Shown here: in pieces, positions 12,548 to 33,666 of the stretch
How positions within the stretch are numbered: the stretch's first letter is position 1
Layout of the letters: each line of letters opens with the position of its first letter
Virus record (IMG/VR): IMGVR_UViG_3300043331_001369
Span: 1-35,203 of that record
Strand: one strand, 5' to 3'
DNA from: a virus
DNA length: 35,203 nt
The notes under the pieces: model-generated
What the model was told of the DNA's origin: nothing
The model's database searches: none
Seen by the model: only the letters and a program-made list of their open reading frames with translations
Made by a program: the position numbers and the translations under genes

Positions 12548-12694
12548 AATCCGGGCCGATCCGGTGAGATCACGGAGGCCTCGGCAGTTCAGGAACCAAT
12601 CAGGGGTCTGGGCGGCAAGATCCGGCCAGATCCGTACGAACAGCGAGATCGGGGGCGCGGGGTCAGGGCAGGTCGGGCTATCAGAAAAATCCGG
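12548..12694. promoter_or_regulatory. Repeated ATCCGG motifs upstream of terS (cos/pac candidate)
   Basis: Between terS and the small membrane gene the motif ATCCGG or a close relative appears at about 12549, 12560, 12620, 12629 (truncated) and 12689, along with related GATC words at 12568 and 12646. An inverted repeat CAGGGCA/TGCCCTG flanks the last copy. The location next to terS and an HNH gene is where cos-type phages keep their packaging site. It could instead be a terminator/promoter region. Confidence 0.4.
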
Positions 12695-25426: not shown

Positions 25427-25507
25427 CTAGGGGCGCGTCTTCCACCAGCTAACGACACCTACGCAGACGACGAAGGCGAGCACCACCGCCACCTGCCAGG
25501 GGGTCAT
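25427..25507 (-). CDS. 26-residue membrane peptide
   Basis: ATG 25507 shares its A with the preceding TGA (TGATG). The product is one hydrophobic helix (WQVAVVLAFVVCVGVVSWW) with a basic KTRP end. It terminates just before the convergent hairpin. Function unknown. Confidence 0.45.
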   Translation of the reverse strand: MTPWQVAVVLAFVVCVGVVSWWKTRP

Positions 25508-26082
25508 CAGCTGGCCTCATGCACCCGGTCGTACATCTGATACAGCACCGGGGTCCAGGCGGCCAGGTGCCGGCCCCAGTTGCCGTCCAGGACGCGGGCG
25601 AGCTCGGCGTCGCCGGCCGGACCCAGCTGGAACGCGAGGTGCCGGAGACCGTGGAGGACGACGTCCCATTGGCGGACGACGGGGGCTTCGGCGGCGCCGT
25701 GGGTCGGGGGTTTGCCGACGTGGCCGGCGACCTTGGGGCTGACGGGGAGGGCGTCGGGCCATTGGGAGCGGACGGGGCCGTGGCAGCGGATGACGGCCAT
25801 GTAGGTGAGGATGCAGGCGTCGCGGTCGATCCGGCTGGAGGTCTGATGCAGCAGGGCGGTGGCGCCGAACATCTGGGCCCGGATCAGCTCCAGCTCGAGG
25901 TCGGCGTGGGGGTCGCCGTTGTGGCCGATGGGTTCGGTCATGAGGGGCCAGTCGCGGGTGAGCAGCCAGATGCCCTGGGTATCGGCGGCGAGCGGCCAGG
26001 CCTCGGCGATGACGTGCATGAGCTTGGACGGCGAGGGTGGGCCGCCGTGGTTCCAGTTGGCGACGTCGGGTTCGATGGCCAT
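25507..26082 (-). CDS. Conserved actinobacterial hypothetical protein
   Basis: A 191-residue protein from ATG 26082 with AGGAGG 8 nt upstream. Its pattern (GIWLLTRDWPL, ARAxxLLHQTSSRIDRDACILTYMAVI, WPDALPVSPKVAGHVGKPPTH, DVVLHGLRHLAFQLG) reminds me of a hypothetical family seen in Streptomyces genomes and their mobile elements. The function is not known to me. It is mixed alpha/beta, cytoplasmic, without Cys clusters. It is co-transcribed with an HTH protein and a coiled-coil protein, which suggests an accessory cassette of mobile-element origin. Confidence 0.6.
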   Translation of the reverse strand: MAIEPDVANWNHGGPPSPSKLMHVIAEAWPLAADTQGIWLLTRDWPLMTEPIGHNGDPHADLELELIRAQMFGATALLHQTSSRIDRDACILTYMAVIRCHGPVRSQWPDALPVSPKVAGHVGKPPTHGAAEAPVVRQWDVVLHGLRHLAFQLGPAGDAELARVLDGNWGRHLAAWTPVLYQMYDRVHEAS

Positions 26083-26093
26083 GGGGAAGCCTC

Positions 26094-26270
26094 CTACGGG
26101 TAGGTCATGCCGTTCAGGTGGGCGGAGATTGCCTGGTCCTGCTCGTAGCGCCACTGCTCATCCCGCTCCAGCTTCGTAACTCGCTCCCGGAGCTCGTCCA
26201 GTTCTCGGCGCTGAACCTGGCTGATCCCCTGGAGTTCCCGGATGGCCTCCCACAGTTGCGCGTTGTTCAT
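26094..26270 (-). CDS. 58-residue coiled-coil protein
   Basis: ATG 26270 overlaps the HTH gene's TGA (ATGA). It is nearly all helix with heptad spacing (LWEAIRELQGISQVQRRELDELRERVTKLE). Its stop lies within the ribosome-binding region of the next gene. It may oligomerise with one of its neighbours; unknown function. Confidence 0.55.
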   Translation of the reverse strand: MNNAQLWEAIRELQGISQVQRRELDELRERVTKLERDEQWRYEQDQAISAHLNGMTYP

Positions 26271-26572
26271 GGCTGCTCCTTCACGCGTTGCGCCTTGGCG
26301 ATCTGCCCGACCCGCTGCGGGGTCACGTTGAGGCGGTCGGCCATGGCGGCGGCGGTCATCTCCTCGGCGTTCCAGATCCGGCCGACCACCCGGTCGCGGA
26401 GTTCCATGGCGGCCTCGTAGGCGGTCTTGGTGGCTTCCAGGACCCGCTGGGCTGGGTCGAGGGCCTGTTGGGGGCTGGTGACGGCGTCGATGGCGGCTTG
26501 AACCTCCTTGTGTTCCCGCCTGATCGCTTCGGCGTAGCGGTCTGCGGCGGTGTCGGCGTCTGGGTTGGCCAT
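26267..26572 (-). CDS. Helical protein with C-terminal HTH
   Basis: A 101-residue protein from ATG 26572. Residues 10-70 are helical and charged. The end, MTAAAMADRLNVTPQRVGQIAKAQRV, has the spacing of a sigma-70 region 4-like or LuxR-like HTH. It is the first gene leftward from a divergent control region containing two AAAG..CTTT palindromes and could autoregulate there. Family not certain. Confidence 0.6.
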   Translation of the reverse strand: MANPDADTAADRYAEAIRREHKEVQAAIDAVTSPQQALDPAQRVLEATKTAYEAAMELRDRVVGRIWNAEEMTAAAMADRLNVTPQRVGQIAKAQRVKEQP

Positions 26573-26586
26573 ACCCTCAGCATACG

Positions 26587-26641
26587 AAAGCGCGCTTTAC
26601 ATGTCTAGCCCGAACGGCTACGCTCTGCCAAAGTCCGCTTT
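26587..26641. promoter_or_regulatory. Paired AAAGnnCGCTTT palindromes in a divergent promoter region
   Basis: AAAGCGCGCTTT (26587-26598) is a perfect 12-bp palindrome and AAAGTCCGCTTT (26630-26641) a near copy, 43 bp apart. Between them, on the minus strand, TTGGCA (26632-26627) and TAGACA (about 26608-26603) with an 18-nt spacer make a plausible promoter for the HTH gene. The layout suggests a repressor-bound loop or cooperative operator. Confidence 0.55.
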
Positions 26642-26767: not shown

Positions 26768-27358
26768 ATGCACCCATATCGTCCCGCGCGTTCTGGTGGC
26801 GGGGCAATAGGCTTCCTGGCCCTCGCCCTGGCCGTGGCGTTCCCGGCGCTGGCGATGACCGTGGTGGCGACCGGCGCTGGGCTGGCGACCCAGGCGGTCA
26901 CCGCGGTCGCCGCCGAGGCAAGCGTGGCCCGGCCGGGGCGTTCCCCACAGCGTCCCGGCCGGGCCGCTTCTTGCCCGGTCGATGGCAAGGTCCGGTTCTC
27001 TGACACCTGGGGCGCGCCCCGCGACGGCGGCGCCCGCCGGCACCGGGGCGTCGACATGTTCGCCAAGACCGGGACCCCGCTGGTCGCCGTCGCCCGCGCG
27101 CGGGTGGTGCGGGCGGGTTGGTCGGGGTCCAAGGGTGGCCTGGCCGTCACCCTCCGAACCAGTCGCGGCACCGAGCTCTACTACGCCCACCTCTCCCGCG
27201 TGTCGGTCCATGCCGGCCAGCGGGTCCGCAAGGGACAGAAGGTCGGGGAGGTCGGCCGCACCGGCAACGCCCGGAGGACCCCGCCGCATCTGCACCTGGA
27301 GGTCCGCCCTCACGGGCGGACGGTGAACCCGACCCCGTACGTCAGGGCGTGGTGCTGA
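26768..27358 (+). CDS. Exported M23-family peptidoglycan endopeptidase
   Basis: A 196-residue protein from ATG 26768. Residues 13-48 form a long hydrophobic signal/anchor. The M23 (LytM/lysostaphin-type) domain covers about 70-195 with zinc ligands H92 and D96 (HRGVD) and the HLH motif (174-176); H141 (YYAHL) is the general base. All key residues are present. It would cut peptide cross-links outside the membrane. It heads a coupled operon with a lytic transglycosylase, DUF2637 and WhiB, away from the endolysin. A role in opening the wall for DNA transfer or entry fits better than lysis, but that is inferred. Confidence 0.87.
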   Translation: MHPYRPARSGGGAIGFLALALAVAFPALAMTVVATGAGLATQAVTAVAAEASVARPGRSPQRPGRAASCPVDGKVRFSDTWGAPRDGGARRHRGVDMFAKTGTPLVAVARARVVRAGWSGSKGGLAVTLRTSRGTELYYAHLSRVSVHAGQRVRKGQKVGEVGRTGNARRTPPHLHLEVRPHGRTVNPTPYVRAWC

Positions 27359-27588
27359 TGTGGGAGTTCATCGGCTGGGAGGGGCTGACCCCGAACGAGC
27401 AGTCCGCCGCTGTCGCCGGGATGATGATCGCCCTCGGGTCGGTCCTGGCCCGGCGGGTGCTGTTCAGCGGCCACGGTCTGCGTCGGCGGGAACCGTCGCG
27501 GCGGATCCGCCACCGGCCCGCCCCGCGACCGGCGAGCCCCAAGAAGCGCCGCAAGCGCGGGAAGCCGAAGCCGAAGGGGCGGCGCTGA
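27358..27588 (+). CDS. Small membrane protein with strongly basic tail
   Basis: A 76-residue protein; its ATG shares A with the preceding TGA (TGATG), and its own stop does the same with the next ATG. One hydrophobic segment (SAAVAGMMIALGSVLARRVLF) is followed by about 30 mostly Arg/Lys/Pro residues. The basic tail could bind nucleic acid or lipid head groups on the cytoplasmic side. It lies between two wall hydrolases. Function unknown. Confidence 0.55.
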   Translation: MWEFIGWEGLTPNEQSAAVAGMMIALGSVLARRVLFSGHGLRRREPSRRIRHRPAPRPASPKKRRKRGKPKPKGRR

Positions 27589-28166
27589 TGGGCCCGCCGC
27601 GGATCTGGCCGGCGGTGCTGCTGGTCATCTTCGGGCTGGCGCTGCTCCAGAACGCCGGGTCGCTGGAGCAGCCCGCCGACGCCGCTGCCGCCCCCAGCAC
27701 CCGGGGGAAGGTGGCGGGGCCGTCGCGGTTCGCCAAAGCCGACGTTCCCCCGCCCATGCTCAAGCTGTACCGCAAGAGCGGCGGCCGGAGCGCCTGGCGA
27801 ACCCGGGACGGTCGCCGCTACCCGACCTGGGCGGTGCTGGCCGCGGTCGGCAAGGTCGAGTCCGACCACTGCCGCGTCGCCGGCGCCAAACCGGGCGGGT
27901 CCTCAAGCGCGGGGGCGTTGGGGTGCATGCAGTTCATGCCCGGGACCTGGCCCGGGTATGGCCGCGGCAGCGTGTACGACCCCCGCAACTCGATCCCAGC
28001 GGCCCGGAGGTACCTGGCCGCCCACCGGGCCAAGCGGGACCTGGCGTGGGCGCTGGCCGCCTACAACGCCGGTCCCGGCCGCGCCGACCATCCCCCCGCC
28101 GTCACCCGCCGCTATGTCCGTAACGCCCTGGCGCTCGCGCGCCGCTACCAGGCCAGGAGGTCCTGA
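27588..28166 (+). CDS. Exported lytic transglycosylase (SLT fold)
   Basis: A 192-residue protein from ATG 27588 (TGATG overlap). Signal/anchor at residues 7-22. The SLT domain covers about 75-190: catalytic Glu in VGKVESDHC (E91), then GALGCMQFMPGTW, DPRNSIPAARRYL and AAYNAGPG, all family hallmarks. The enzyme cleaves MurNAc-GlcNAc bonds. Together with the M23 peptidase two gene steps upstream it would attack both glycan and peptide parts of the wall. Such pairs accompany conjugation and type IV-like machines. Confidence 0.88.
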   Translation: MGPPRIWPAVLLVIFGLALLQNAGSLEQPADAAAAPSTRGKVAGPSRFAKADVPPPMLKLYRKSGGRSAWRTRDGRRYPTWAVLAAVGKVESDHCRVAGAKPGGSSSAGALGCMQFMPGTWPGYGRGSVYDPRNSIPAARRYLAAHRAKRDLAWALAAYNAGPGRADHPPAVTRRYVRNALALARRYQARRS

Positions 28167-28622
28167 ATGCGTCATCAGCCCGCCCACTACCCCGGCATGA
28201 TCCCGATCGGCCCGCCCCGCCAGTCCACCAAGTCGGCCGTCATCGCCACCGCCATCCGCGAGGTGCTCATCTTCGCCGGCCTGTTCCTGATCGCCGCCGC
28301 CCTCGGGGTCCTCGACTCGCCCTTGATGCTGTTCGGCTACATCCTCGCCCGCGGCCTGATCCACGTCCTGGCCGGTGCCCGCCGCGACCGGCAGCTGTTC
28401 CGCACCCTCAGCCTGTGCGTGCTGGCCGGCGCTCTGGCCGCGATCGTGGCCACCGCCACCCCCGACCTGCCCGCCCTCGAGGGCCGGCAGCCCAAGCCGC
28501 CCGTGGTGAAGGTGGACGCGGCCCAGGTCGACCAGCTCGCCAAGGCCAAGGACATCTGGGCGAAGGCGTGGGCGCAGGTGGCGACGGCGTTCAGCACCGA
28601 CCCTGAGGAGGCTGCCAAGTGA
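28167..28622 (+). CDS. Polytopic membrane protein
   Basis: A 151-residue protein; AGGAGG lies 6 nt before ATG 28167. Two to three membrane helices (about residues 30-75 and 82-98) are followed by a Pro/Lys-rich linker and a C-terminal amphipathic helix (AAQVDQLAKAKDIWAKAWAQV). It overlaps the DUF2637 gene by 4 nt. It may form a membrane platform with it. No family recognised. Confidence 0.55.
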   Translation: MRHQPAHYPGMIPIGPPRQSTKSAVIATAIREVLIFAGLFLIAAALGVLDSPLMLFGYILARGLIHVLAGARRDRQLFRTLSLCVLAGALAAIVATATPDLPALEGRQPKPPVVKVDAAQVDQLAKAKDIWAKAWAQVATAFSTDPEEAAK

Positions 28623-29392
28623 ACTCCCCCCATGTAATTACACCGCTGCGGTTCCGCGACCTGACCGGGTTCGGCCGGTTCATCATCGTCGCCGTCGCCA
28701 TCCTCACCGCCCTCGTCGCGGTGGCCGCGTTCGCCACCAGCTACGGCGCCCTGTACGCCCTGGTCCGCGACACCGGCCTCTACTCCGACCGCCTGACCCT
28801 GTTCTACCCCCTGCTGCTGGACGCCGCGTTCATCGCCGCCGAGCTCGCCGCCATCCTCGGGGGGATCCTCCGTGGCCCCCGCGGCTGGCCGGTAACGGTC
28901 ATGCTGATCGCCGGGTCGCTGACGATCGCGTTCAACGTCATGCACGCCATGGGCAGCTGGGACGACTGGACCCGCGGGGTCATCGCCGCCCTTCCGCCGG
29001 TGATGATGATCCTCGCGTTCCAGGTCGACCTGGCGATCGTCGCCTGGGTGATGAAGGCCCTCGGCAAGACCGAACAGGCATTCGACGGGGCGGGGTCGGT
29101 GCTGGGGGTTCCGCAGATGGCCCCGCAGATGCAGACCCGCTGGTCAACCGGGACCGAATCCGGTCAATCCCGACAGTGGGGGAGTGTGGACGGTGGGGGA
29201 GTGGTCACCACCAAGTCCATTATCCTGGCCGAGCTGGAACGCCTCGGACCCACCGGGGTGACCCAGCTCGGCCCCGAAGGGATCACCGAGGAACTCGCCG
29301 CCCGCGGCATCGAGACCAAGCCGCGCTATGTCCGCAAGGTCATGGACGAGGCCGCCATCGCCCCGAGCACCAACGGTAAGGGTCACGCGTGA
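28619..29392 (+). CDS. DUF2637 membrane protein with C-terminal wHTH
   Basis: A 257-residue protein from GTG 28619 (GTGA). Four membrane helices lie at about 20-45, 62-85, 92-112 and 120-148, with the family's LYSDRLTLFYPLLLDAAFIAAEL and NVMHAMG segments. After a Ser/Gly/Gln linker, residues about 195-250 form a small winged-helix-like domain (SIILAELERLGPTGVTQ..., RYVRKVMDEA). DUF2637 proteins are frequent in actinobacterial conjugative elements (SpdA/Spd-type regions) and some phages. The exact role is unknown. A membrane-linked DNA-binding function is suggested by the fusion. Confidence 0.8.
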   Translation: MNSPHVITPLRFRDLTGFGRFIIVAVAILTALVAVAAFATSYGALYALVRDTGLYSDRLTLFYPLLLDAAFIAAELAAILGGILRGPRGWPVTVMLIAGSLTIAFNVMHAMGSWDDWTRGVIAALPPVMMILAFQVDLAIVAWVMKALGKTEQAFDGAGSVLGVPQMAPQMQTRWSTGTESGQSRQWGSVDGGGVVTTKSIILAELERLGPTGVTQLGPEGITEELAARGIETKPRYVRKVMDEAAIAPSTNGKGHA

Positions 29393-29628
29393 ACCCCGAG
29401 TGGATGAACCGGGGCGCCTGCCACGGCGCCCCCGACGCCTGGTTCTACCCGGATCTCGGCCCGGGGATGATCGAGGGCATCAACGCCGCCAAGCGGGTCT
29501 GCGCCCGCTGCCCGGTCCGGGTCGAGTGCCTGGACTATGCTCTGGCCAACAACGAAAAGGACGGGATCTGGGGCGGCACGTCGGGTCGGGAACGACGCCG
29601 GCTGAAGGCCGAACGGAGGGTCGCATGA
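29389..29628 (+). CDS. Second WhiB-like iron-sulphur regulator
   Basis: A 79-residue protein from GTG 29389 (GTGA overlap), the compact size typical of phage WhiB proteins. Cluster cysteines C11, C38, C41 and C47; DGIWGG turn at 58-63; basic end SGRERRRLKAERR. It closes the envelope-remodelling operon. It differs from the other WhiB in the window: no N-terminal extension and different flanking residues, so it is not a recent duplicate. It probably tunes host or phage transcription in response to redox or NO, as in the family. Confidence 0.88.
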   Translation: MNPEWMNRGACHGAPDAWFYPDLGPGMIEGINAAKRVCARCPVRVECLDYALANNEKDGIWGGTSGRERRRLKAERRVA

Positions 29629-29807
29629 GCGGGAAGGACATACCATTCCACCGCTACGTCGGGGCCGACGATGACCCGCCCGACGCGATCTGCGCAGCCT
29701 GTGGTGTCCGTAAGGACCGCGCCATCCATGATGAGGAGACCGCCGATCGACACGGCGGATTCCAGCCCGTCGAGCCCGGTCTCGAACTCCCCCGCCCGGA
29801 TGGTTAA
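29625..29807 (+). CDS. 60-residue putative zinc-ribbon protein
   Basis: ATG 29625 in an ATGA overlap with whiB. It contains ICAACGVRKDRAIHDEE, a pattern common to small actinophage proteins (CxxC with a following His). Its stop lies in the AT-rich inverted repeat. Function unknown. Confidence 0.55.
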   Translation: MSGKDIPFHRYVGADDDPPDAICAACGVRKDRAIHDEETADRHGGFQPVEPGLELPRPDG

Positions 29808-29827
29808 TAATGATACTTATGTTAACC
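29802..29827 (+). promoter_or_regulatory. AT-rich inverted repeat, probable promoter/operator
   Basis: GGTTAA (29802-29807) and TTAACC (29822-29827) flank TAATGATACTTATG. This 26-bp block is by far the most AT-rich spot in the region. TATGTT (29818-29823) could be a -10 box for the micro-ORF run that starts at 29864. Confidence 0.5.
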
Positions 29828-29863
29828 TCGTCCGCTTCTACCCCTTCTGACCAGGGAGAATCC

Positions 29864-32059: not shown

Positions 32060-32156
32060 GCGACTCCCAGACGTAGACGCGGCGTCCACAGGCATCGCAC
32101 AGAATTAGTTCCCCGGGCTGGACCCACCCCTTGGCCGGTAGTTCCTTGGCGGTCAC
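32040..32156 (-). CDS. Truncated paralogue of the HNH-like protein
   Basis: A 38-residue frame from GTG 32156, whose G is the last base of the metacaspase TAG. KELPAKGWVQPGE..CDACGRR matches the 30.8-kb HNH-like gene almost residue for residue, and the DNA is about 80% identical there. It then diverges and stops before the LHH..CH nuclease part. It may be a remnant of a duplication or a stand-alone zinc peptide. Without the catalytic part it cannot be a nuclease. Confidence 0.5.
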   Translation of the reverse strand: MTAKELPAKGWVQPGELILCDACGRRVYVWESPRFGLC

Positions 32157-32998
32157 TACCGCTCCCCCGACTCCTCGAACACGAGCCAGCGTCGCTGCCC
32201 CGACCCACCCTCGAGGCGGGGCCGCTGGTCGAAGTCGACACTGGGGAGGCGGCGGTTGATGGCGCGCTGCCAGTCGCGGTAGGTGGCCGGGTGCTCCTCG
32301 AGCGCCTGGAGGGCGGCGTAGGTGAACGCGCCGTTGGCGCGCCCGTTGAACCAGGCGTCGTAGGCGACCTGGGTGTCCTGGCAGGCGGCCAGGAGCAGCG
32401 CAGAGGCGCGAGCCCGGCCGCGGACAGGGGTGTACTGGACGGTCTCGGCGTCGACCAGGTCTTCTTCGAACATCCATTCGGCCGGCGGGAGGAACCTGGC
32501 TAGGCGGCCACCGATCGACACTCTGTCGGCGTACGTCGGCGGATCGGTGGGTTCATGGTCCAAGCTGAGCCGCGGGGCGAGCCGGTTGACGGTGCCCGAG
32601 TGGCAGGAGTCGCTGATGAACACGACCCGGGCCCAGCGGTGCCCGCTGGTGAACACGCGGTAGAGGTCGTCGTCGCCGATCATGGAGGTCTTGGCATAGT
32701 CCGTCGGCACGATGACTTCATCCCGTCGATCCGGCTCGTCGCCGTCCCGATCAACGCGCCACGAGCCGTGCCCGCTGTACTGGATGACGGCGAGGTCGTC
32801 GGGGCCGGTGTCGGTGATGAGGTCGCCCATGGCCATGAGCATGTTGGCGCGGGTCGCCTGGGCGTCGGTCAGCATGACGACCTGGAACCCGCGTTCGCCC
32901 AGGACGGCCGCCCAGTCCTTGGCGTCGTTGACGCATCCGGCGAGCTGGGCTGAGGTGCCGACGTAGTTGATCCCGATCGTCAGGGCGCGCTTGGTCAA
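32156..32998 (-). CDS. Metacaspase (caspase-like cysteine peptidase, C14)
   Basis: A 280-residue protein from TTG 32998, in a TTGA overlap with the endolysin stop. It has complete type I metacaspase features: RALTIGINYVG..LAGCVNDAKDW at the start, catalytic His in QYSGHGS (H77), DGDEPD..DEVIVPTDY, and catalytic Cys in SDSCHSG (C132). The p10-like part has LLLAACQDTQVAYDAW (D208 at the expected S1 position, suggesting cleavage after Arg/Lys), NGAFTYAALQAL and a QRPRLEG end. No signal peptide or prodomain is seen, so it should act in the cytoplasm. Bacterial members take part in cell-death and defence systems. A phage copy inside a lysis operon is unusual. Its substrate is unknown; it may trigger or time host death, process phage proteins, or counter defence. 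Confidence 0.9.
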   Translation of the reverse strand: MTKRALTIGINYVGTSAQLAGCVNDAKDWAAVLGERGFQVVMLTDAQATRANMLMAMGDLITDTGPDDLAVIQYSGHGSWRVDRDGDEPDRRDEVIVPTDYAKTSMIGDDDLYRVFTSGHRWARVVFISDSCHSGTVNRLAPRLSLDHEPTDPPTYADRVSIGGRLARFLPPAEWMFEEDLVDAETVQYTPVRGRARASALLLAACQDTQVAYDAWFNGRANGAFTYAALQALEEHPATYRDWQRAINRRLPSVDFDQRPRLEGGSGQRRWLVFEESGER

Positions 32999-33666
32999 GG
33001 CTCCTCCCTGGGGATCGGGGCGGTGAACGCGGCCTTCCAGGTGACCGGACCCACCACCCCGTCGGCCTCCAGCCCCTGCTGGCGCTGGAAGAACACCACG
33101 CTATGGTTCGTGCCGGTGCCGAACTCGCCGTCGGGGACGCAGGGGATGCCGCGGTGGTTGAGCTGGGCCTGGATCTTCCTCACGTCCTCGCCGGTCATCA
33201 TCGGGTCGGTGAGGCGCAGGTAGCGGCCGGGCCAGGGCGGGTACGGCGGCGGGTCGATCTTGGCGTGGTAGTGGTGGCGGAACAGCGCGCTCGTGTCGGA
33301 GCGGGCGTCGGGTCCGACGAGCACCCCCGCCCCGCCGCGTGACTCGACGTTCAAGGATCCGAGGCGGCCGGCGACATGGCCGATGCCGCTGCTCGACTCC
33401 CACGGGTAGATGACGCCCATGCTGAAGTCGCCTGCGTCGCCTTTGCCGGCGTGGAGGCCGAGGTCGTCGTAGACGCTGGCGATGGTGCCGGTCCCGAACC
33501 GCCGGACGTAGACGTTGGAGCGGTCCTCCAGCACGTTGAGGCAGGCCGAGAGGAACCCTGAGCAGTCGAACCCGTCGGGGCCGACCCCGCCCCACCGGTA
33601 GGGGTCGCCTTCCTGGGCGTGGGCGAACCGCTGGGCCCGGGTGAGGTCGTCGGTGCCAAAGGCCAC
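32995..33666 (-). CDS. Endolysin: NlpC/P60 domain plus peptidoglycan-binding domain
   Basis: A 223-residue protein from GTG 33666, whose G is shared with the preceding TAG. The N-terminal domain has YRWGGVGPDGFDCSGFLS (catalytic Cys35) and SSSGIGHVAG (H97), as in NlpC/P60 endopeptidases. After a Pro-rich linker (139-147), residues about 148-215 are a PG_binding_1 domain (LTDPMMTGEDVRKIQAQLN..., VDG.FG.GT...V..FQ, GLEADGVVGPVTW). No signal peptide, so it needs a holin to reach the wall. It cuts cell-wall peptides at the end of infection. Confidence 0.88.
   Translation of the reverse strand: MAFGTDDLTRAQRFAHAQEGDPYRWGGVGPDGFDCSGFLSACLNVLEDRSNVYVRRFGTGTIASVYDDLGLHAGKGDAGDFSMGVIYPWESSSGIGHVAGRLGSLNVESRGGAGVLVGPDARSDTSALFRHHYHAKIDPPPYPPWPGRYLRLTDPMMTGEDVRKIQAQLNHRGIPCVPDGEFGTGTNHSVVFFQRQQGLEADGVVGPVTWKAAFTAPIPREEP

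Follow-up and report, generated by a model that had tools for sequence, protein, structure and literature searches.

The stretch of viral DNA analyzed here (IMG/VR virus record IMGVR_UViG_3300043331_001369; 35,203 bases, hereafter the window or G000) carries at positions 26768–29807 a module of seven coupled genes that encode two predicted wall hydrolases, small membrane proteins, a DUF2637 protein and a WhiB-like factor. With about even confidence, we interpret it as an operon for lysogenic conversion (a moron) in a temperate actinophage, assembled from the part of actinobacterial conjugation operons that is concerned with wall opening and the membrane. This interpretation builds on the genes and their coupling, their conservation, the intact catalytic motifs, the absence of motor genes from the contigs, the similarity to type IV secretion system (T4SS) operons and the position beside a dif-like site. 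Expression in lysogens, integration at dif, formation of a complex and the resulting phenotype are what we infer from it.

The window is a fragment of a tailed actinophage. Its minus strand holds genes for the large terminase, portal, protease and major capsid protein, and RecT, a phage-type replication initiator, a repressor-like helix-turn-helix (HTH) gene and an endolysin are encoded as well. Relatives of the terminase in the phage collection belonged overwhelmingly to phages of actinobacteria (best match 43.6%, an Arthrobacter phage). Genes run open at both ends of the window, in which no tape-measure gene, tail genes or terminal repeats were recognized. Since it is a fragment, what an earlier note on this DNA had said of the genome is restated here for this contig: it does encode three unlike peptidoglycan hydrolases, namely an M23 peptidase, an SLT transglycosylase and an endolysin with NlpC/P60 and PG_binding_1 domains (32995–33666, minus strand).

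The module itself consists of seven tandem, intact open reading frames (ORFs) on the plus strand with minus-strand genes on both sides. Successive junctions overlap by 1, 1, 0, 4, 4 and 4 nt, in keeping with the coupling that had been proposed earlier. The GC content at third codon positions was high in all seven ORFs, matching the expectation for real genes at the 69% GC of the window. Gene 1 (26768–27358, 196 aa) encodes an M23 peptidase (Pfam M23, E = 3e-28) that exhibits the HxxxD and HxH motifs and a hydrophobic N-terminal segment (residues 7–25). Gene 2 (27358–27588, 76 aa) would yield a small protein with one transmembrane (TM) segment, as judged by hydrophobicity, and a basic tail of charge +16. 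Gene 3 (27588–28166, 192 aa) encodes an SLT lytic transglycosylase (Pfam SLT, 9e-11) with the catalytic motifs ES, GxMQF and AYN, likewise preceded by a hydrophobic segment. The N-terminal segments of genes 1 and 3 support their predicted export or anchoring. For gene 4 (28167–28622, 151 aa), two hydrophobic segments indicate a two-TM protein; it gave no Pfam family above the cut-off, no PHROG or NCBIfam family and no match in phage or plasmid records, and its AlphaFold model was uninformative (predicted local distance difference test, pLDDT, 52). Gene 5 (28619–29392, 257 aa) combines a DUF2637 membrane domain (Pfam, 3e-9; four hydrophobic segments) with a C-terminal helical, HTH-like domain. 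Only this C-terminal domain was predicted with confidence (pLDDT about 90), and a fold search returned no significant match. Gene 6 (29389–29628, 79 aa) encodes a WhiB-like transcription factor with four cysteines (Pfam Whib, 1e-21), and gene 7 (29625–29807), sharing 4 nt with gene 6, a protein of 60 aa. While the assignments to M23, SLT, DUF2637 and WhiB are firm as profile matches, genes 2, 4 and 7 matched no family. Gene 7 contains a single CxxC and the name 'zinc ribbon' given to it earlier is therefore unsupported. Scanning viral contigs with the gene 1 or gene 5 protein alone yielded no match, and tblastn retrieved no relatives of genes 3, 4 and 5 among 50,697 phage records and none of genes 4 and 5 among plasmids.

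Relatives of the module were nevertheless found in other phage contigs. Ten related viral contigs were retrieved with the terminase of the window as query. Among them, IMGVR_UViG_3300043331_000516 (G008, locus L020; terminase TerL 34% identical) holds homologues of genes 2–6 in the same order as in the window, with identities of 36% for gene 2, 35% for gene 4, 33% for the DUF2637 protein and 44% for WhiB; gene 3 and the SLT domain of G008 agree in 49% of aligned columns (41% by tblastn). Both divergent flanking genes are kept beside the module. The gene order highlighted in the earlier note thus recurs for genes 2–6 and breaks at gene 1, which is missing from G008: a short ORF preserves a similar start region there, and the SLT is extended at its front by a fused NlpC/P60 domain. 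As the M23 peptidase is swapped for a fused NlpC/P60 while the SLT is kept, the type of peptidase is exchangeable, but a transglycosylase continues to be paired with a peptidase. A third phage contig of 60 kb, IMGVR_UViG_3300036861_000387 (G011, locus L130; terminase 23%), was found via its SLT and contains DUF2637, SLT, a basic-tailed one-TM protein and WhiB in one plus-strand cluster. Its DUF2637 domain scored just above the Pfam cut-off in one scan and just below in another. WhiB occupies the same place in all three, with 44–48% identity between the window and G008 and G011. Judged by these homologies, the module is a recurrent one, found in three divergent actinophages. Two fragments that are closer to the window by terminase (G005 and G006) showed no M23 or DUF2637 match, which fits a cargo module, incomplete as these two contigs are.

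In all three phages the module adjoins a single dif-like site, an association that is new here. In the window the site has the sequence ATGGTTAATAA-TGATAC-TTATGTTAACC(T) (29800–29828, plus strand), and its XerC-like arm shares bases with the stop codon of gene 7. Each of the three contigs contains a single copy of a 22-nt motif, ATAAYNNTNNTTAYGTWAACCT, always at the 3' end of the module (29807–29828 in the window, 12557–12578 in G008, L130:11029–11050 in G011); the full dif-like sites of the relatives span L020:12550–12578 and L130:11022–11050. The number of chance matches expected in the window is 0, even with three mismatches allowed. The 11-6-11 layout represents the same architecture as E. 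coli dif (GGTGCGCATAA-TGTATA-TTATGTTAAAT) and matches published dif architecture including that of B. subtilis and Frankia (PMC3025954). A close pattern was present in 5 of 296 actinobacterial genomes, mostly as a single copy, and a reversed control gave none; such rarity would be in line with host dif sites that mostly deviate from it in their final bases. No tyrosine integrase (PF00589) was detected in the window and G008 contigs, which are possibly incomplete, and serine integrases were not searched for; G011 carries a PF00589 gene. The site is probably an attP for XerCD-dependent integration, while a role in dimer resolution of a circular form is less likely. As it lies at the 3' end of the module, integration would place genes 1–7 at one end of the prophage. 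A prophage end is the classic place for lysogenic-conversion genes. By comparison, the label 'phage-plasmid' found no backing: no partition family or plasmid genes appeared among the proteins scanned of this incomplete contig, the only replication initiator is of phage type, and the dif-like site speaks for Xer-dependent integration or plasmid dimer resolution.

The resemblance to conjugative elements suggested by the earlier note was borne out, with one correction to its kind. Several plasmid relatives of gene 3 sit in T4SS operons. In Embleya, Streptomyces and Paenarthrobacter they follow VirB4/VirD4-type genes and are fused to NlpC/P60 or M23. The second hydrolase is NlpC/P60 in Embleya, Streptomyces and most other T4SS loci; Paenarthrobacter has an SLT–M23 fusion and Rubrobacter an SLT gene followed by a separate M23 gene. 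Homologues of VirB4, VirD4, PrgI or SCO6880 were located within 10 kb of 63 of the 80 best SLT relatives (our own count), mostly SLT–NlpC/P60 fusions, in a genome scan whose SLT alignment was seeded with T4SS sequences. In an SLT-domain tree the rows nearest to gene 3 were T4SS-linked SLTs, although the tree has few columns and a long branch for the window; it grouped G008 with G011 (Shimodaira–Hasegawa-like approximate likelihood ratio test 97). Furthermore, in a set of 30 genomes, six places in four genomes, all from Actinomadura, had a DUF2637 gene no more than 1 kb downstream of an SLT of this kind. About 0.1 would be expected by chance, as estimated from hit numbers and genome sizes, and the Actinomadura loci are mutually related. 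The loci read VirB4–VirD4–(replication-relaxation)–SLT–NlpC/P60–DUF2637 with a C-terminal HTH, the fused SLT–NlpC/P60 gene and the DUF2637 gene being immediate neighbors, so that the order SLT to DUF2637-HTH is common to Actinomadura T4SS loci and the phages. Actinobacterial T4SS operons feature the same SLT family, its combination with a second peptidase and this gene order. The likeness to a conjugative element stands, whereas the restriction to the FtsK/TraB kind does not, since the VirB4/VirD4 type is the closest.

Motor genes are absent from the module-bearing contigs. No FtsK/SpoIIIE domain (PF01580) was found in those of G000, G008 and G011, with control genomes positive, in agreement with the earlier statement that an FtsK-type pump is lacking from this contig. 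Several VirB4 seeds gave no tblastn match in these possibly incomplete contigs, nor did four VirD4 (type IV coupling protein) seeds or the PrgI seeds. No relaxase, oriT or clt was identified among the annotated genes, and no search aimed at them was made. Wall hydrolases of the VirB1 kind are present in the window as SLT gene 3 and peptidase gene 1. In other viral contigs, an FtsK-like ATPase directly precedes an SLT of the gene 3 family (G013 and G015) or lies elsewhere (G014). G013 encodes a polytopic HTH protein, an FtsK/SpoIIIE-like ATPase and a T4SS-type SLT in a row (L132:6252–10321) on a contig with terminase and integrase; this cluster is a transfer module in a phage, resembling those of actinomycete integrative and conjugative elements (AICEs), and tblastn found no relative of its FtsK and SLT in the 50,697 phage records. 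In G015 (L134:6673–9362), which showed no terminase match with phrog_9, the FtsK-like ATPase is followed directly by a T4SS-type SLT. Motor-bearing and motor-less versions therefore both exist, the window representing the latter. In G014, a T4SS-type SLT and small two-TM genes (L133:9848–10393) lie between portal and terminase on the opposite strand.

How might such a module act? Gram-positive VirB1 homologues are membrane-anchored, have extracellular domains and open the wall for the channel (PMC12857230). Like VirB1-type enzymes, the products of genes 1 and 3 may be anchored on the outer face of the membrane, where they would cleave nearby stem peptides and glycan strands. The proteins of genes 2 and 4 and the DUF2637 protein may form or position a membrane complex, with the C-terminal domain of the latter in the cytoplasm, where it may bind DNA or regulate. 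SpdB2, with which we compare it, is an oligomeric membrane protein that binds DNA and interacts with TraB (PMC4170104). WhiB (and gene 7) could adjust transcription of the host or of the operon; a phage WhiB has been reported to repress host whiB2, a regulator of division and septation (PMC11797047). Lacking a motor of its own, the complex would therefore most likely alter the envelope of the lysogen, for example against superinfecting phage or at septa. Secondarily, it could serve transfer by a co-resident conjugation machine.

Several points weigh against the moron interpretation. Expression of the module in lysogens is presumed, and so is use of the site as attP, since neither a host nor an integrated copy was found; moreover, plasmid dimer resolution is another function of dif-like sites. 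The look-alikes of genes 2 and 4 in G011 share topology and show no sequence similarity by profile comparison. The comparison with SpdB2 of pSVH1 presumes that SpdB2 is a DUF2637 protein. In addition, the T4SS affinity of the gene 3 SLT came partly from the T4SS-seeded scan: when 148 genomes of a single class were sampled without such seeding, 40 matches, chiefly the best, were examined and only 7 of them clearly lay beside T4SS genes. We thus tempered the claim that this SLT is exclusively of T4SS type.

The likeness to conjugation operons also invites the view that the module is a helper-dependent transfer device, in which a prophage or excised circle relies on a T4SS or FtsK motor, either the host's or a co-resident one, to pass between cells or hyphae in contact, with the hydrolases and the DUF2637 protein supplying a local channel. 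Its components do match the distal end of a T4SS, and G013 and G015 place an FtsK-like ATPase directly before an SLT of the same family; the missing motor in the three phages argues against it, as does the lack of an identified relaxase, oriT or clt, though no specific search was made, and we consider it unlikely. We give still less weight to a motor-less mating module, by which a conjugation-type wall pore of the lysogen, made of the SLT, a peptidase and a DNA-binding DUF2637 membrane protein, would let the excised, Xer-integrating prophage pass between cells in the absence of virions, with the motor supplied by host FtsK or by a co-resident T4SS. The 'transfer or entry apparatus of a new kind' envisaged by the earlier note is possible but unproven, with no motor found and no sign of transfer. 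An auxiliary lysis operon, in which the exported SLT and M23 enzymes would speed up host lysis with the small membrane proteins as holin-like helpers, appears no more probable than helper-dependent transfer. Two exported hydrolases indeed accompany small TM proteins, and the operon converges on the late lysis genes in G000 and G011. However, module and late genes occupy opposite strands in these two phages, in G008 the module lies upstream of the terminase, and DUF2637 or WhiB are not normal in lysis operons. Every phage moreover has its own endolysin of another family about 3–25 kb from the module (Peptidase_M15_4 in G008 and Amidase_2 in G011), and the module is therefore unlikely to be the lysis cassette.

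Two further explanations are very improbable in our view. Genes 1 and 3 could encode virion-associated entry lysins, that is, tail or internal proteins: among their PHROG matches are proteins with these domains from the tail, the tape measure and the virion interior, and gene 3 matched a single PDB entry, which is a tape measure protein. Against this, both are small stand-alone proteins with N-terminal export segments, a tape-measure-like gene is present elsewhere in G008, and in all three phages the module lies outside the head/tail operon. Ordinary virion lysins or a loss of synteny, which would have spoken against the earlier note, were thus not what we observed: synteny is conserved and the genes stand apart from the structural operon. 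Slightly lower still we rate a decaying remnant of a captured integrative and conjugative element or T4SS operon that has no present function. The absence of motor genes and the differing gene content between phages would fit it, yet ORFs, catalytic residues and tight coupling have stayed intact despite deep divergence (33–49% identity over alignments), and the module recurs in three phages.

Among known systems, the actinobacterial T4SS operons (PrgI–VirB4–VirD4, SLT–NlpC/P60, DUF2637; Actinomadura L121, L050 and L097, Embleya and Streptomyces plasmids) share the SLT family, the second peptidase and membrane anchoring. In contrast to them, the phage contigs lack VirB4, VirD4 and PrgI, the M23 peptidase is a separate gene, and the phage module adds genes 2 and 4 and WhiB and is located in a phage beside a dif-like site. 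VirB1-like bifunctional hydrolases (pIP501 TraG, Tn916 Orf14/CwlT type) probably correspond in their anchored muralytic and peptide-cleaving activities, and the G008 fusion joins SLT and NlpC/P60; the domain order of G008 is reversed (NlpC, then SLT), however, the window uses two genes, and no known channel is tied to them. Transfer modules of Streptomyces plasmids and AICEs (TraB/FtsK plus SpdB2) presumably have a DUF2637-type polytopic protein with a C-terminal extension in common with the window, which lacks TraB/FtsK; FtsK–SLT pairs exist in other actinophage contigs. To our knowledge, these systems have not been described with SLT and M23. Phage morons with WhiB, such as that of mycobacteriophage TM4, agree in WhiB, in orientation against the neighbors and in the presumed att-proximal position; they differ in that the phage records contained no relatives of genes 3, 4 and 5. 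Xer-exploiting phages of the CTXphi type share a 28-bp dif-like site (XerC arm, 6-nt center, XerD arm) and, as far as the contigs of G000 and G008 go, the lack of a tyrosine integrase gene, whereas the phages studied here are tailed double-stranded DNA actinophages, not filamentous, and would only presumably integrate.

Upstream of the module lie two minus-strand genes. A divergent, weakly HTH-like gene (26267–26572) may encode a regulator; its G008 homologue (49%) is also divergent to the module. Next to it stands a conserved flanking gene (25507–26154; 46% over 216 aa to G008). The HTH gene has a predicted consensus promoter, TAGACA-17-TATGCT (26579–26607), reading away from the module. By eye, a candidate promoter for the module, TTTACA-17-TACGCT, lies over it on the opposite strand, so that the two –35 boxes would share bases. 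A hairpin at the start codon of gene 1, common to G008, was within shuffled controls (z –1.8 and –0.9). The beginning of gene 5 contains an 18-nt stretch, CATGTAATTACACCGCTG, that surrounds the palindrome TGTAATTACA (28632–28649, plus strand; single copy per contig), and the same 18 nt occur in G008 at L020:10547–10564. There it sits in a separate 15-codon leader ORF (MTLPTHVITPLSGGR*) with a TAG stop just before the DUF2637 start. A common 15-mer around the palindrome picked out G008 only; the other 16 matches were chance-like, nearly all in lower-GC contigs. Downstream, a metacaspase/caspase-domain gene (32156–32998, minus strand; Peptidase_C14, E = 1.8e-29) shares 4 nt with the endolysin gene. 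Its product contains YSGHG and DSCHSG motifs and has metacaspases as top PDB relatives. Defence-system models gave no match.

Taken together, by its resemblance to the wall-opening part of conjugation systems and its place at a probable attachment site, this operon links phage lysogeny to conjugation machinery. With the dif-like site, the place of integration of these three phages can be predicted and tested. Should the envelope role be true, actinobacteria would harbor lysogenic-conversion genes of an unrecognized class; should the module act in transfer, mating could be a way for phages to spread.

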